From IMG/VR virus record IMGVR_UViG_3300025120_013226, positions 1 through 23,292 of that record: 23,292 nt of DNA. One strand, written 5' to 3'. Origin of the DNA: a virus. Under the pieces are notes generated by a model, which saw nothing but the letters and a program-made list of their open reading frames with translations, made no database searches and was not told where the DNA came from. Numbering within the stretch: the first letter of the stretch is position 1; each line of letters starts with the position of its first letter. Below, in pieces: positions 3 to 20,782 of this stretch. The translations under genes were made by a program, and so were the position numbers.

Positions 3-140
3 AGAAAAATAAGACTAGAACGAGGACAAAACATATTCCGTTACTACTGGTGGTTATGGCTGTTGAGTCCGTTTATTATTTTTGCATTATGGATTCTGAC
101 AGCATTCATTATAGGATTCAGACAAGGCACAGGACTGTAA
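3..140 (+). CDS. C-terminal end of a membrane protein (cut by window edge)
   Basis: An open frame enters from the left edge and stops at TAA 138-140, giving 45 residues. It begins with a basic, Arg-rich stretch, then an aromatic patch (YYWWLWLL) and one or two hydrophobic segments (about residues 16-38, PFIIFALWILTAFIIGF), and ends in a short polar tail. This is the look of a membrane protein C-terminus. Its stop codon overlaps the start of the cyclase gene (TAATG), so the two are probably translationally coupled and may work together. I do not recognise the family, and most of the gene lies outside the window. Confidence 0.6.
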   Translation, partial: RKIRLERGQNIFRYYWWLWLLSPFIIFALWILTAFIIGFRQGTGL

Positions 141-2062
141 TGAAGATATTCACAAGCATATGGATGGTCATAGTGTTTGCTATTGTACTGACCGGTATCC
201 GAATAGACAACAGTGACACAGTAAAGACCATAAGATATAAAACGTGGGATCACTTCCAGTATGTGCAACCGAGACAAGATGTGAGTGATGCAATAGTTGT
301 GGTGGACATAACAGAAGAAGATCTAAAAAAATACGGACAGTGGCCATGGCCCAGACATACGATGGCCATGTTTCATGCTACTCTGACTTCTGCAGGTGCA
401 ATACTTGTGAACTACAACATACTGTTCGCAGATCCAGACAGGATGAGTGGTGAGGAATACCTCAAGAGTATGCCCATGGACAACGAACTGCGAGAGCAAC
501 TGGGCAAAGTGTTGCCAGACACAGATGCGATATTCTCGTACGTCATGAAAGAAAGCAACAATGCTGTACTGATTATGAGTGTCAATCATAAAGAAAGCAA
601 CGTGTTACCTAGGACAACATCAATCATACAGAAGGGTGATGCACTGCCGTGGTTGTACTCTTACCCGGGACTGGTTGTTCCAAACAGTAAAGTGGCCGCA
701 GGAGCAAACGCAATAGGAGTCATGGTGACTGCTCCAGAACCAGATGCTGTTGTAAGGAAGATGCCAATGCTGATACGTGTGGGTCAAAAAATATATCCCA
801 ACATGATTTTAGAAAATGTAAGGATACTCAACAAGAGCAAGAGGATCAAAGTGATAACAAAGCAACACGGGATTGATCAAATACTAGTGAAGAAAGATGC
901 AGGCATACCTGTTAACCATAACGCAGAGATGTACATCAATTATGCTGATCCAATAAATTATCCACACATGACCTCCGACGAAGTATTCACCAAACAAGGG
1001 CTGGACAAGGTCAAGGGAAAAATAGTCATAGTAGGACTGGATGCGGCAGGACTAAGATATTTAAAATACACACCACATGGACTGACCACAGATCAGATGA
1101 TGACTGCACAGGCGTTAGATACCGCGTTAACCGGCAAGCACCTGTTTAGACTGGCACAGGCAGATGCATACGAAATAGTGTTCATGGCATTTTTATTATT
1201 GCTGTTGATACTTGTACTGCCGAGAACCAGTGTGTTGTTGGCCGTTCCTTTACTGATTTTCATAGAAGGTGGTGTTGCTTATGCTTCTTTTGTGGCGTAT
1301 GCCAACAAGGGATTCCTGATAGATCCATCTTGGATAATGCTGTCCGTGTTCCTAGTTTGGTCCCATTCTGTGTACAACAACTTCGCGACACAGAGCAGAT
1401 TGAAACAACAGATCAAGAAACAGTTCGAACACTACCTCGATCCAAGGATGGTCAAGAAGTTACAGAAAGATCCCAGCCTATTGAAACTGGGCGGCGAAAC
1501 AAGATTCATGACTTTCATGTTCTGCGATATCAGAGGGTTCACTCCCATATCAGAACAGTACAAGGACAATCCAACAGAACTTACAAAACTGATCAACAGA
1601 TTCCTAACACGCATGACCAATGTCATAATTGCCAATGGTGGCACTGTGGACAAGTTCATGGGTGACTGCATAATGGCATTTTGGAACGCACCACTTAAGA
1701 CTGCAGATCATCAGATGTTGGCAGTGTTGACAGCGTCTCAGATGCAATCAGAATTGGCCATGCTGAACACACAATTGACAGCGGAAAATTTGCCAAACAT
1801 CAAAGTAGGCATAGGTATCAACTCAGGTGAGGCCCTGGTTGGCAACATGGGATCAGATCAGAGATTTGATTACTCTGTGATAGGTGATCCTGTTAACCTT
1901 GCGGCACGTTTGGAGAGTGCAAGTAAGACCCTAGGACACACATTGATAGTGGGAGAGGCAACTAAAAAGGTCATTGATGACAAGTTTCCTTTTGAATTCG
2001 TGGACAGTATCACAGTCAAGGGCAAAACCGAACCTGTGAATGTGTACACCCTGACACGTTAA
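140..2062 (+). CDS. CHASE2-domain class III adenylate/guanylate cyclase
   Basis: This 640-residue protein has the full architecture of bacterial CHASE2 cyclases. An N-terminal membrane segment (about 4-22) is followed by an extracytoplasmic CHASE2 sensor (about 30-335) with the hallmark VVVDITEEDL, GQWPWPR and LFADPDR motifs, then three membrane spans (about 343-415), a helical linker and a cyclase domain (about 455-640). The catalytic set is present: metal-binding D463 (FCDIRGF) and D509 (KFMGD), base-selecting K505, and transition-state N586 and R590 (VNLAAR). The second base-selecting position is S579, where class III cyclases usually have Asp or Thr. Lys505 favours ATP, so cAMP is the likely product; this is inferred. 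The start at 140 is chosen because it overlaps the upstream stop (TAATG) and gives a proper signal-anchor; an upstream in-frame ATG at 50 would run through the previous gene. Such a protein is normal in bacteria but unexpected in a phage. Confidence 0.93.
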   Translation: MKIFTSIWMVIVFAIVLTGIRIDNSDTVKTIRYKTWDHFQYVQPRQDVSDAIVVVDITEEDLKKYGQWPWPRHTMAMFHATLTSAGAILVNYNILFADPDRMSGEEYLKSMPMDNELREQLGKVLPDTDAIFSYVMKESNNAVLIMSVNHKESNVLPRTTSIIQKGDALPWLYSYPGLVVPNSKVAAGANAIGVMVTAPEPDAVVRKMPMLIRVGQKIYPNMILENVRILNKSKRIKVITKQHGIDQILVKKDAGIPVNHNAEMYINYADPINYPHMTSDEVFTKQGLDKVKGKIVIVGLDAAGLRYLKYTPHGLTTDQMMTAQALDTALTGKHLFRLAQADAYEIVFMAFLLLLLILVLPRTSVLLAVPLLIFIEGGVAYASFVAYANKGFLIDPSWIMLSVFLVWSHSVYNNFATQSRLKQQIKKQFEHYLDPRMVKKLQKDPSLLKLGGETRFMTFMFCDIRGFTPISEQYKDNPTELTKLINRFLTRMTNVIIANGGTVDKFMGDCIMAFWNAPLKTADHQMLAVLTASQMQSELAMLNTQLTAENLPNIKVGIGINSGEALVGNMGSDQRFDYSVIGDPVNLAARLESASKTLGHTLIVGEATKKVIDDKFPFEFVDSITVKGKTEPVNVYTLTR

Positions 2063-2076: not shown

Positions 2077-2358
2077 ATGACACAGTTTTTTAAATTAGTA
2101 GCAGAACTAGGATTACCAATTGCCGCCACGGTGGGAATGGGTGTATTCATACTGTTCATAATCAGGTACATACTGAACGGCATAGTATCATCGATCAAGT
2201 TCATCGAGACCGTGATATCACAATTGGACAACAGGGTCAAGACAATGAACAACGACATACTTAAAATTGACCAGGAAGTTTCCGAACAACTGGGATTGCC
2301 AATAGACACGGACAGGGTGGCCAGAGCAGACGGCAAGACCGATGCGAGGAAAGACTAA
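2077..2358 (+). CDS. Small membrane protein, UviB/BhlA holin-like
   Basis: The product is 93 residues. It has an N-out short stretch, one transmembrane helix (about 12-36, GLPIAATVGMGVFILFIIRYI), an amphipathic/coiled-coil region with a heptad-like pattern (about 40-70), and a charged tail ending DARKD. One span followed by a coiled coil is the plan of UviB/BhlA holin-like proteins, and related small proteins occur in marine T4-like phages. It resembles the product at 2471 in order and spacing (G-[LF]-P-I, span, then L-D-N-R / L-D-N-D), suggesting a duplicated pair. It follows the cyclase by 14 bases and overlaps the next gene (TAATG). A role in lysis or in membrane remodelling is inferred from shape only. 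Confidence 0.75.
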   Translation: MTQFFKLVAELGLPIAATVGMGVFILFIIRYILNGIVSSIKFIETVISQLDNRVKTMNNDILKIDQEVSEQLGLPIDTDRVARADGKTDARKD

Positions 2359-2471
2359 TGAGTAAATTCTTCATAACAGCATTTTTAATCGGTTTCATCA
2401 TTGGGTTCATAGTTGGCGTTTCAGGCACAAGCATTGACCCGGGAGTGTTCGGCGGAAGGATGTCAGGATAA
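2358..2471 (+). CDS. Tiny single-span membrane protein (37 aa)
   Basis: ATG 2358 overlaps the stop of the preceding gene and its own stop overlaps the next ATG (TAATG at both ends), a strong sign of a genuine translated gene. The 37-residue product begins MSKFF and has one hydrophobic helix (about 4-22, rich in Phe, Ile, Gly with a G-x3-G repeat: IGFIIGFIVGVSG), followed by a short polar tail with Gly. The small-xxx-small pattern suggests helix packing in the membrane. No family is recognised. It sits between two holin-like proteins, so it may belong to the same complex. Confidence 0.65.
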   Translation: MSKFFITAFLIGFIIGFIVGVSGTSIDPGVFGGRMSG

Positions 2472-2719
2472 TGGACATAGTCAGTAAACACATGACAGTC
2501 ACTACAATTATTCAGGACTATGGTTTTCCCATTGTTGCTGTTTTCTTCCTTGCATACTTCATCTACTTCCTTTGGAAGTTTATCACAACAGAAATCACAC
2601 CTAAACTGTCTTCAACATCGGCTACACTGATCAAACTCATTGACAGGATACGATTGTTAGACAACGACCTGATCAGGCTACAGACAAAAGTACGCACTTT
2701 GCAGAAAAAGAAGAAGTAG
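2471..2719 (+). CDS. Small membrane protein with coiled-coil tail, paralogue of the 2077 product
   Basis: The product is 82 residues. One transmembrane helix (about 19-37, FPIVAVFFLAYFIYFLWKFI) is followed by a linker rich in Ser/Thr and a predicted coiled coil (about 52-78) that ends in a lysine cluster (QKKKK). The layout matches the 93-residue product two genes upstream and UviB/BhlA-like holins. The lysine tail would place the C-terminus in the cytoplasm. It overlaps the preceding 37-residue gene by one base. A membrane pore or anchor role is inferred; no enzymatic motif is present. Confidence 0.75.
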   Translation: MDIVSKHMTVTTIIQDYGFPIVAVFFLAYFIYFLWKFITTEITPKLSSTSATLIKLIDRIRLLDNDLIRLQTKVRTLQKKKK

Positions 2720-8927: not shown

Positions 8928-9263
8928 ATGAAACCATTCGAAATAACAGACTCTGCGAAAGCACAGATAGAACGACTGCTGGAGAAGAACCCAGACAAGT
9001 ACGCAGTGAGCCTAGCAGTGTTGGGAGGAGGTTGTGCAGGATTCAAGTACGAGTGGGGATTCGCAGACACAAAAGAGTCCATGAGTAAAGATGACCACAT
9101 GGAAGACTGGCACACAGGTAGGTTTGTTGTGGATGAGACTTCATTACTGTACGTGGTTGGTACCAAGATCGATTGGGTCGAGGAGACATTTGGATCGCAG
9201 TTCGAGATATCAAATCCCAACAGCTCAAGTTCGTGTGGTTGCGGAGAATCATTCGGCGTATAA
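8928..9263 (+). CDS. A-type iron-sulfur carrier (IscA/ErpA/SufA family)
   Basis: The product is 111 residues. The family signature is complete: C36 in GGGCAGFKYEW and the pair C103/C105 in SSSCGCGESF, the three cysteines that hold the iron or Fe-S cluster. The core of about 100 residues fits. An insertion of acidic, Ser- and His-containing residues (about 47-64) is longer than in bacterial IscA. A-type carriers deliver Fe-S clusters to apo-enzymes; phage versions presumably support host or phage Fe-S proteins during infection. The start is set by the ATG after the TATAAT box; it overlaps the next gene (TAATG). Confidence 0.9.
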   Translation: MKPFEITDSAKAQIERLLEKNPDKYAVSLAVLGGGCAGFKYEWGFADTKESMSKDDHMEDWHTGRFVVDETSLLYVVGTKIDWVEETFGSQFEISNPNSSSSCGCGESFGV

Positions 9264-10021
9264 TGGATACTGCTTTCATATTAGGCAACGGCGAATCAAG
9301 AAATATTTTTCCAATAGATAACTTAAAAGGCAAGGGTGTGATATACGGTTGCAACGCCATCTACAGGGATCATCCAATGCTGTGTAATCACATAGTGGCA
9401 GTAAATCCTCCCATGTACGAGGAACTGGCTCAGTGGCACAACTATGGCAAGGAGTCTCCACGTATACACGGTCCGGATGATATTAGCAAATGGAATTACA
9501 TCTGTGAAGGAGACCATGATCACGATATACCCGAAGGACTCAAGATTTACAGATTTTGGCGTGGTGGTGACATCAAGAAGGGTGGCAAGATAAAAACCAA
9601 CGACTTCTCAAAAGCACGTGGATCGGGTTGTAGTGCTGTGTTGATGGCCGCGGAGTCGGGAGTAAAGAATGTTGTAATAATGTCTTTTGATATCATGGGG
9701 GCAAAACAATGGGAATACACCAATGATAGCCGTGGCGAACTGAGCAGACTGCAGAACAACATATATAAAGGTTCAATAAACTACCCAGACAGGCACAGCA
9801 TGAAAGCCTACCTCAAGTACGAGTGGATGTATCAACTGAGGCAAACATTTAAGAAATTTCCCGGGACAAACTTCTATTTCATAAATCGAAAAGAATACCT
9901 GGAAAGCAATCCGTTCCTGCGTTGGTACTTCGACCAACCTAATATAAAGTGTGGCATATACGCTGACCTGCAGAGATGGATCACGGGATCACGTGACGAC
10001 ATCCGATGGAAACAGTTATAG
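9263..10021 (+). CDS. GT42/DUF115-like putative glycosyltransferase, copy 2
   Basis: The product is 252 residues. FILGNGESRN (5-14) and VIYGCNAIYRDH (26-37) are nearly the same as in the 211-residue product at 4645. Further on, KARGSGCSAVLMAAESGVKN and VVIMSFDIMG match the CstII/GT42 pattern of a Ser/Gly-rich helix and a following strand ending in Asp. The C-terminal part (about 150-252) is rich in Tyr and basic residues and is longer than in copy 1. The start at 9263 is set by the TAATG overlap and by alignment with copy 1. The last six bases overlap the convergent minus-strand gene. Sugar transfer to surface polysaccharide is inferred. Confidence 0.65.
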   Translation: MDTAFILGNGESRNIFPIDNLKGKGVIYGCNAIYRDHPMLCNHIVAVNPPMYEELAQWHNYGKESPRIHGPDDISKWNYICEGDHDHDIPEGLKIYRFWRGGDIKKGGKIKTNDFSKARGSGCSAVLMAAESGVKNVVIMSFDIMGAKQWEYTNDSRGELSRLQNNIYKGSINYPDRHSMKAYLKYEWMYQLRQTFKKFPGTNFYFINRKEYLESNPFLRWYFDQPNIKCGIYADLQRWITGSRDDIRWKQL

Positions 10022-10294
10022 GGTCTTGGTACTGCTGGCGTCCAACTGATACACCTTACGCATCTTGACACCCACTGACTGGGCGAACTTTTTTGAATCA
10101 CAATCATTACAGACGTGTTTGTAGTCATTTGAGGCACGATCTGGATCTACCTTGCTCTTGGGCCTCATGAATGTCTCCGAACAGGCATCGCATTTGAACA
10201 CATAGATCAGGTTCTTCCTGTGATAATTGTGCATCGTACCTAGTTTGCTCTCCCTCTTGTACAACTTCATTGTTTTTAAGGTTTCTATGAACAT
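10016..10294 (-). CDS. Zinc-ribbon protein, only minus-strand gene in the window
   Basis: The product is 92 residues from ATG 10294 or 84 from ATG 10270. Two CxxC pairs, CDAC and CNDC, are about 30 residues apart in a basic context (VFKCDACSETF...HVCNDCDSKKFAQ), a typical zinc ribbon. The tail QLDASSTKTL is polar. Such proteins occur in T4-like marine phages; DNA or RNA binding is likely but unproven. The 10294 start is preferred because a TTAAAT box on this strand lies six bases before it, as at other early genes here; neither start has a Shine-Dalgarno. It is convergent with the gene before it and divergent from the structural genes. Confidence 0.75.
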   Translation of the reverse strand: MFIETLKTMKLYKRESKLGTMHNYHRKNLIYVFKCDACSETFMRPKSKVDPDRASNDYKHVCNDCDSKKFAQSVGVKMRKVYQLDASSTKTL

Positions 10295-19644: not shown

Positions 19645-20286
19645 ATGTCAAATACATTTTCTTGGAAGACAAAATTTAAAAGTATAATCATAGTTGACGG
19701 AGAACTATTCTCTAATGAATACAATCTAAACATTTCTCTCACTCCACACACAGCAAGTCTAAAAGAACAGACTGATTATTTTGAAAGACTGAAAAATCTT
19801 TTTGAACAGGTTTTTGCAAACACTATCACAACATGGAGAGACGAACCTCTCTACCATACATTAAAGAAAAGTTCTACAAACAGATTCATTGAATTACCAA
19901 AACCTCCCTATGACCAGATCATGGCCGCTGTGTGTTTTTGTAAAGCAAACTCAGTTTTAGATTCTGTCATCACTATTAATAACATCGAACTATCATCATG
20001 GCAGGGCGATGGTATTACCTACAAGGTTGACAAAGATAGCAAAGAGCTTATACTATTAGATAGACCCGATTGGTTTTCAGCAAAATACAGTAAATTCGAT
20101 CCATGGTGGTTGAGAGCGGACACGGCAACATATGATCAAGAACTTGACAAAGGAATATACACTGGACATTTTAGTTGGAACAATCAAAAAATACCAGTTG
20201 ACAAGACCCATGACTATCATGCTAAAGTATTTGAGTTCCAACCAAAGGTTTTAGATGGCGGAAAAGATAAAAACAAAAATAAATGA
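19645..20286 (+). CDS. Conserved phage protein of unknown function (213 aa)
   Basis: The product is 213 residues. It has FSWKTKFKSIIIVDGELF near the start, Trp-rich segments (SSWQGDGITYKV, DPWWLRADTATYDQEL) and a lysine-rich tail. No membrane segment or known catalytic motif is seen. Its sequence is AT-rich (about 30-35 percent GC in 19681-19800) compared with the structural genes. ATG 19645 is taken over an in-frame TTG at 19642; TAAATA lies six bases before it and there is no Shine-Dalgarno. It overlaps the next gene by 32 bases. Confidence 0.7.
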   Translation: MSNTFSWKTKFKSIIIVDGELFSNEYNLNISLTPHTASLKEQTDYFERLKNLFEQVFANTITTWRDEPLYHTLKKSSTNRFIELPKPPYDQIMAAVCFCKANSVLDSVITINNIELSSWQGDGITYKVDKDSKELILLDRPDWFSAKYSKFDPWWLRADTATYDQELDKGIYTGHFSWNNQKIPVDKTHDYHAKVFEFQPKVLDGGKDKNKNK

Positions 20287-20782
20287 TCACGGTGATGTAA
20301 TATTCTCAGAAGAGGATGTTATTGACTTACTGTACACTGATCCAGACTTCAACATATCAAAACTCTATTTCAACGACATAGACAAGTATTCAGACAGCCT
20401 AAAAGAGTTAGGTATAGATCTACCAGTGATCAACACAGCACCCAAGAGACCAGCACCTGCAGAATTTGACAAACAGAACTGTGACAACTGGCACATGCCT
20501 GAGAAGTATTACCAAATAAATGTTTTAGAATGGTTGCTTGATAAATGTCAGAACGATGAAGAGAAATTACAAGTGCAGATGGAATATGATCTGTTTGAGA
20601 AGAAACAATTCATACGTGTGTTACAGTTCTTGATTTACTTTGTAGACACGTTGAGAGCAAATAACATGGTCTGGGGTGTAGGCAGAGGATCAAGTGTGGC
20701 CAGTTTCTGTTTGTTCTTGATAGGAGTACACAAGATCAATCCTATGCTGTACAATTTAGATATCACTGAATTTTTGAGATGA
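20255..20782 (+). CDS. Short DNA polymerase III alpha (DnaE)-like protein without catalytic motif
   Basis: The product is 175 residues. The C-terminal part (about 108-175) matches DnaE just before its catalytic aspartates: EYDLFEKKQFIRVLQFLIYFVD, then VWGVGRGSSVASFCLFLIG with the dNTP-binding GRGS (143-146), then NPMLYNLDITEFLR. In DnaE the P-D-F-D-x-D metal site follows at once, but here TGA ends the gene. The N-terminal 100 residues are not a PHP domain and are unrecognised. It therefore cannot be a polymerase by itself. It may bind nucleotides or a replication partner, or mimic the host enzyme; this is inferred. I recall similar short proteins in marine T4-like phages, so it is probably not a recent truncation. 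Confidence 0.75.
   Translation: MAEKIKTKINDHGDVIFSEEDVIDLLYTDPDFNISKLYFNDIDKYSDSLKELGIDLPVINTAPKRPAPAEFDKQNCDNWHMPEKYYQINVLEWLLDKCQNDEEKLQVQMEYDLFEKKQFIRVLQFLIYFVDTLRANNMVWGVGRGSSVASFCLFLIGVHKINPMLYNLDITEFLR

Follow-up and report, generated by a model that had tools for sequence, protein, structure and literature searches.

What is new in this group of uncultured marine phages is a type I secretion-like cassette, borne by the phages themselves and located upstream of a CHASE2-sensor nucleotidyl cyclase gene. The cyclase is probably the signalling end of this export cassette, in which a giant protein with a FecR domain would be exported, its FecR read by the CHASE2 domain, and cAMP made. Among the open-access titles and hit lists surveyed, none was recognised as dealing with type I secretion cassettes of phages or with phage CHASE2 domains. 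The window, meaning the whole stretch of DNA analysed, is an IMG/VR virus record of 23,292 bases; it opens partway through the cassette, and the genes before that point were read from relatives. The relevant features of the window are the following:

3 to 140, plus strand: 3' end of an upstream membrane-protein gene; the frame reads RKIRLERGQNIFRYYWWLWLLSPFIIFALWILTAFIIGFRQGTGL up to its stop codon, with a p127 match at position 3
140 to 2062, plus strand: CHASE2-sensor class III nucleotidyl cyclase of 640 aa (Pfam, Foldseek, catalytic residues, dN/dS)
179 to 1207, plus strand: CHASE2 domain, including the membrane helices that flank it, aa 14 to 356, a predicted periplasmic sensor (PF05226, E=3.4e-37; AF2 model; inferred topology)
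1508 to 2053, plus strand: cyclase catalytic domain, aa 457 to 638 (PF00211, Guanylate_cyc, E=1.5e-20; alignment with 2w01 and 3r5g)
2077 to 2358, plus strand: small protein A (phrog_18771, E=4.6e-29)
2471 to 2719, plus strand: small protein B, second of the pair (phrog_18771, E=2.9e-24)

In the relatives, the cassette runs from a FecR giant through a TolC-like protein, an ABC permease without ATPase, a short HlyD and, in part of the group, a small two-span membrane protein to the CHASE2 cyclase, which is on the same strand and is usually followed by two small one-span proteins. Type I secretion genes were found upstream of the cyclase in 33/33 window-type loci with at least 0.8 kb of upstream DNA (26 distinct contigs once seven repeats of the same contig are removed), and curli or FecR genes in 57/57 curli-type loci, counts that express consistency and not 90 independent events, as each phage group is one clade. 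At locus L016, the cassette comprises a FecR-cadherin-RTX giant of 1,209 aa, a TolC-like OEP protein of 598 aa, a permease of 249 aa, an HlyD of 241 aa, a membrane protein of 119 aa and the cyclase, with intergenic gaps of -44 to +27 bases. The membrane protein (L016:9642-10001) is the full-length form of the gene cut at the start of the window, where its stop codon TAA overlaps the ATG of the cyclase (TAATG). Giants of 1,000-1,700 aa with an N-terminal FecR and cadherin are recurrent, and some carry RTX; the motif was found in three of six giants examined (L016, L008 and L040) and not in L044, L053 or L034. Pfam assigned OEP, HlyD_3, FecR, Cadherin and RTX to the cassette proteins.

The exporter is reduced relative to a complete type I system. 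The outer-membrane protein is TolC-like by PF02321 (E=2.4e-49) and by TIGR01844 (E=1.4e-29, under the curated cut-off). The HlyD of 241 aa matches TIGR01843 (type_I_hlyD) at E=1.7e-45 in two pieces, under the cut-off, and its middle hairpin region is absent. The ABC protein, of 249-251 aa, matches TIGR03375 of NCBIfam (E=8.7e-16) with its membrane (permease) part only and ends before the ATPase. Export via the normal type I route is therefore doubtful. The single strong ABC_tran match elsewhere in the phage group, on contig G001, sits beside SufE and away from the cassette, and it is not supported as the source of the missing ATPase. On sequence grounds, the phage exporter is derived from type I secretion but lacks the ATPase domain expected of such a system, and we refrain from classing it as one.

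The initial annotation, made from the letters alone, had described a complete CHASE2-sensor cyclase with six catalytic positions and three spans, and Pfam, alignment with solved cyclases and hydropathy bear this out. Three membrane spans stand out clearly by hydropathy (aa 2-20, 343-361 and 364-382), and an AlphaFold2 model (mean pLDDT 85.5) added a helix at aa 397-429 that may be a fourth. Pfam, hydropathy and model together give the layout of a CHASE2 receptor cyclase, that is, an N-terminal span, CHASE2, further spans and a C-terminal cyclase. Furthermore, the catalytic domain has the fold and Pfam signature of class III cyclases, along with their two metal-binding Asp (D463/D509), base-selecting Lys (K505, paired with S579) and transition-state Asn and Arg (N586/R590), all six aligning with equivalent sites in solved cyclases (2w01 and 3r5g). 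Foldseek placed it close to Pseudomonas aeruginosa CyaB (3r5g, TMt 0.87). The two share the active-site residues, except that CyaB has Thr and not Ser as its second base-selecting residue; of CyaB, the solved structure shows just the catalytic domain. In an alignment of 72 window-type, 81 curli-type and 60 bacterial sequences, D463, K505 and D509 were 100% kept, and N586 and R590 were near-invariant. Ser579 had been called atypical; it is instead the usual residue (72/72 window-type, 79/81 curli-type and 53/60 bacterial sequences), and we rejected it as a special specificity switch. The dN/dS of the gene was 0.04-0.13 in the close pairs for which it was computable. By these measures, the gene is under purifying selection with an intact active site, and Lys505 predicts ATP as substrate and cAMP as product, not pyrimidine use.

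What stands of the initial annotation is that phage DNA here carries an intact sensor cyclase under selection, with residues predicting cAMP; the atypical serine and the novelty in phages do not stand, and the T4-like carrier is not supported. Indeed, Pelagibacter phage HTVC008M and Methylophilales phage Melnitz carry annotated homologues, and curli (T8SS) cassettes that include FecR and an adenylate cyclase were described in pelagiphages in 2022 (PMC9599517).

An intact active site would also suit a general manipulator of cAMP, with which the phage raises cAMP and reprograms host CRP-type regulons, the secretion genes being mere neighbours. A search of 15 phage records for cNMP-binding proteins found none; a phage-encoded cAMP receptor is thus not supported, and any receptor must be the host's or another; a host receptor, likely on this count, is what such a manipulator would use. 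However, the cyclase is steadily linked to secretion cassettes and FecR across widely differing phages and in many bacterial loci, and it keeps a large conserved sensor domain under selection, which makes this explanation unlikely. A stand-alone disturbance of host catabolite control, as first proposed, is likewise not the preferred reading: at every locus whose upstream DNA is available, the gene accompanies a secretion or curli cassette (33/33 window-type and 57/57 curli-type loci).

The comparison with curli phages separates what is constant in these cassettes from what is exchanged. HTVC008M and Melnitz, which belong to a different phage lineage from the group of the window, have the order small protein A, small protein B, CsgF, CsgG, curlin, FecR, curlin and cyclase. 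They share with the window's group a homologous CHASE2 cyclase (33-35% identity), a homologous FecR, the same small-protein pair and the placement of the cyclase after cargo and exporter genes. In contrast, their exporter is CsgG/CsgF and not type I secretion-like, and their FecR is a separate protein, whereas that of the window's group is fused to the giant cargo. The N-terminal FecR of the giant is 37.7% identical to that of HTVC008M over 204 aa (E=1e-30); by sequence reading, the curli FecR has a signal-peptide-like start, whereas the giants have none. In a scan for FecR, 77/79 loci also held curli, type I secretion or cyclase genes; no third exporter type was seen among the known markers searched, and the remaining 2/79 loci end within ~2.2 kb of FecR.

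The small proteins follow the same distribution. Small protein A, with one membrane helix and an LDNRVKTMNND helix, is 51% identical to its HTVC008M counterpart, which precedes csgF in curli phages. In relatives, the phrog_18771 pair usually adjoins the cyclase, on either strand (a few loci gave no match), and it occurs with both the curli and the type I secretion-like cassettes; in a scan for these proteins, 76/81 loci also held a cyclase, curli or type I secretion gene. Four contigs of 259-349 kb (L402, L369, L411 and L381) hold the pair with a cyclase, and three of them have curli and FecR genes nearby, so the core reaches jumbo phages. As a side observation, the two small proteins before CsgF in HTVC008M (L058:4929-5491) may be the "histidine kinase(s)" of PMC9599517, which is a guess; Pfam found no kinase domain in the one HTVC008M small protein examined.

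Some contigs combine both arrangements. In L025, one cyclase goes with a type I cassette and a second with a curli cassette, and L051/G003 and L047 have curli genes and two cyclases, the window-type copy being cut at the contig end. The two catalytic domains within each of these contigs are 79-81% identical, and the two sensors are 30% identical in L025, the sole contig that allows the sensors to be compared. In quick tree searches without bootstraps, the curli-side catalytic domains of the two-cyclase contigs nested among the secretion-linked ones (97 SH-aLRT), and in the sensor tree the secretion-linked group formed one clade with the curli-side sensors outside. We take this as an exchange of the catalytic half between cassettes, with the sensor apparently staying with its exporter. 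Curli as the regular partner of the window-type cyclase is not supported, as CsgG was absent from 16/17 viral records of the group, which are fragments; the exception is G003, with curli genes and a window-type cyclase. Taken together, these data may reflect a portable core of FecR, CHASE2 cyclase and phrog_18771 proteins, mounted on at least two unrelated exporters (curli and the ATPase-less type I derivative) and sometimes on both, through which the infected cell would sense a phage-built surface structure and answer with cAMP. We hold this broader reading with as much reserve as conviction.

Roles in sibling capture and lysis have been discussed for phage curli (PMC7029224, PMC9004378), and the curli pore (CsgG) of Melnitz has been proposed to time progeny release (PMC9004378). 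Extended to the present cassettes, the outer-membrane channel and the cyclase would form a gate for that release. This account has a published CsgG model behind it, and an ATPase-less permease with a trimmed adaptor would suit a gated channel better than a pump. Nevertheless, cargo is recurrent in both cassette types, as FecR giants of 1,000-1,700 aa or as curlin repeat proteins, and we find lysis timing somewhat less probable even than general cAMP manipulation.

The bacterial homologues extend the association beyond phages. The best 80 bacterial matches are mostly from Alphaproteobacteria, and both exporter arrangements are present among them. FecR occurs in 31/80 bacterial cyclase loci against ~1.2 expected, the expectation coming from 66 FecR hits in 72.6 Mb applied to 1.28 Mb, with the two counts made by different search methods. 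On the curli side, a Caulobacteraceae MAG (L183:5992-12049) has the order CsgF-CsgG-curlin-curlin-FecR-CHASE2 cyclase; FecR and cyclase have been stated not to lie within bacterial T8SS operons (PMC9599517), and this locus is at least one exception to that statement. On the type I side, the alphaproteobacterial loci L188, L197, L199, L201, L208, L216 and L218 resemble the phages in holding exporter genes together with a homologous cyclase. L188, from a marine bacterium, shares the gene order of the phages (a partial protein of 978 aa, ABC, HlyD and cyclase); it differs from them in its full ABC protein (551 aa including the ATPase) and its full-length HlyD (417 aa). L197 shares with the phages a FecR/RTX giant. 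The phrog_18771 pair was not found in the alphaproteobacterial type I secretion loci with a CHASE2 cyclase.

Unlike the phages, the six loci other than L188 have cNMP-binding domains on both sides of the cyclase, one just upstream and a stand-alone one just downstream. In L197 (L197:8246-9961), the upstream domain is N-terminal and fused to HlyD (Pfam), directly before the CHASE2 cyclase, and the upstream cNMP-binding proteins of L199, L201, L208, L216 and L218 are 74-81% identical to that of L197. These marine alphaproteobacterial loci may encode cAMP-gated type I secretion, and nothing else hints as clearly as this arrangement at an action of the cyclase product on secretion.

Related neighborhoods have been described elsewhere. 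In Sinorhizobium meliloti, the CHASE2 cyclase CyaD1 (SMc02176) lies beside the FecR-domain protein SMc02177 and feeds a cAMP cascade via the Crp-family regulator Clr, and SMc02177 was reported to be dispensable for signal perception (PMC5498481). By description and not by sequence comparison, this system resembles the phage cassette in that a CHASE2 receptor cyclase gene adjoins a FecR-domain gene; it is unlike the cassette in being chromosomal, without phage or exporter, and in not needing FecR for perception. The latter weakens the FecR-to-CHASE2 step proposed here. A Burkholderia biofilm operon likewise has CHASE2/FecR neighbours, together with a histidine kinase (PMC5192318).

A further alternative is counter-defence, according to which the nucleotide signal of the phage would decoy or jam host cyclic-nucleotide immunity of the Pycsar or CBASS kind. 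The enzyme is indeed a phage-borne class III cyclase, but its membrane CHASE2 architecture, its linkage to FecR and an exporter, the frequent position of bacterial homologues beside FecR or secretion genes and the use of ATP rather than pyrimidines predicted from Lys505 make this explanation very improbable.

Although the cyclase gene begins 140 bases from the contig end, an assembly chimera or accidental bacterial DNA at the window start, the chimeric join against which the initial annotation had cautioned, has a negligible probability and is ruled out by the 56 related loci with cyclase fetched from viral contigs and by the flanking gene order kept in four relatives (L016, L053 and L044/G001, the latter of 137 kb, keep the order of the window genes from 3054 on, which G003/L070 has in inverted form), in addition to an even base composition with no jump and the purifying selection on the gene.

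As for the carrier, the initial annotation had called it T4-like, which our results do not support. Gp23, sheath and Terminase_6N gave no match on the 67-148 kb contigs of the window's group, although these are fragments and such absence is not final. The DNA polymerase of the group falls in the wider T4-type set, nearest to jumbo phages, the closest polymerases being those of the 469-kb Sinorhizobium phage Phosso and of PA5oct. Compared with a set of HTVC008M proteins, G001 matched only hsp20, FecR, cyclase, gp44, gp43 and RNaseH. The contigs of the group look like pieces of larger genomes. Other observations concern the rest of the window. An ORF of 175 aa (20255-20782) matches a 171-aa DNA polymerase PHROG over its full length and resembles a piece of a larger polymerase. 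A small cysteine-containing ORF on the minus strand (10016-10294), amid plus-strand genes, is 98% identical in L016 and 76% in G001. Additionally, the window encodes an Fe-S biosynthesis protein (8928-9263), and SufE, ABC ATPase and TonB plug protein genes adjoin one another in G001 (L063:7651-10436); these are possibly phage genes for iron-sulphur metabolism or iron uptake.

The reading that we favor, a cyclase serving an export cassette, starts from the make-up of the cassette, the common core, the selection on the gene and the intact active site, all read from sequence; from these we infer export, FecR-CHASE2 contact, a cAMP product, a host receptor and a benefit to the phage. On the surface of the infected cell, the exported giant would form an adhesin or a fibre. 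The FecR at its N-terminus would stay in, or pass through, the periplasm, where the CHASE2 domain may read it. The helices would then relay the signal to the cyclase dimer, which would make cAMP from ATP, and the cAMP would act on a host receptor. Curli phages would use the same FecR, cyclase and small proteins with CsgG/CsgF and a separate FecR, the core remaining constant while the exporter is exchanged. The benefit might lie in host aggregation, superinfection exclusion or the timing of exposure.

Phage curli cassettes have so far been explained as serving sibling capture, transport or lysis pores, with the cyclase as an add-on. Since the same FecR, cyclase and small proteins occur on an unrelated exporter, what is conserved is the signalling core rather than curli itself. 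In one bacterial relative, the HlyD fused to a cAMP-binding domain offers a direct link, open to test, between the cyclase product and secretion. More broadly, these results suggest that many marine phages reshape the surface of the infected cell and keep watch over it.
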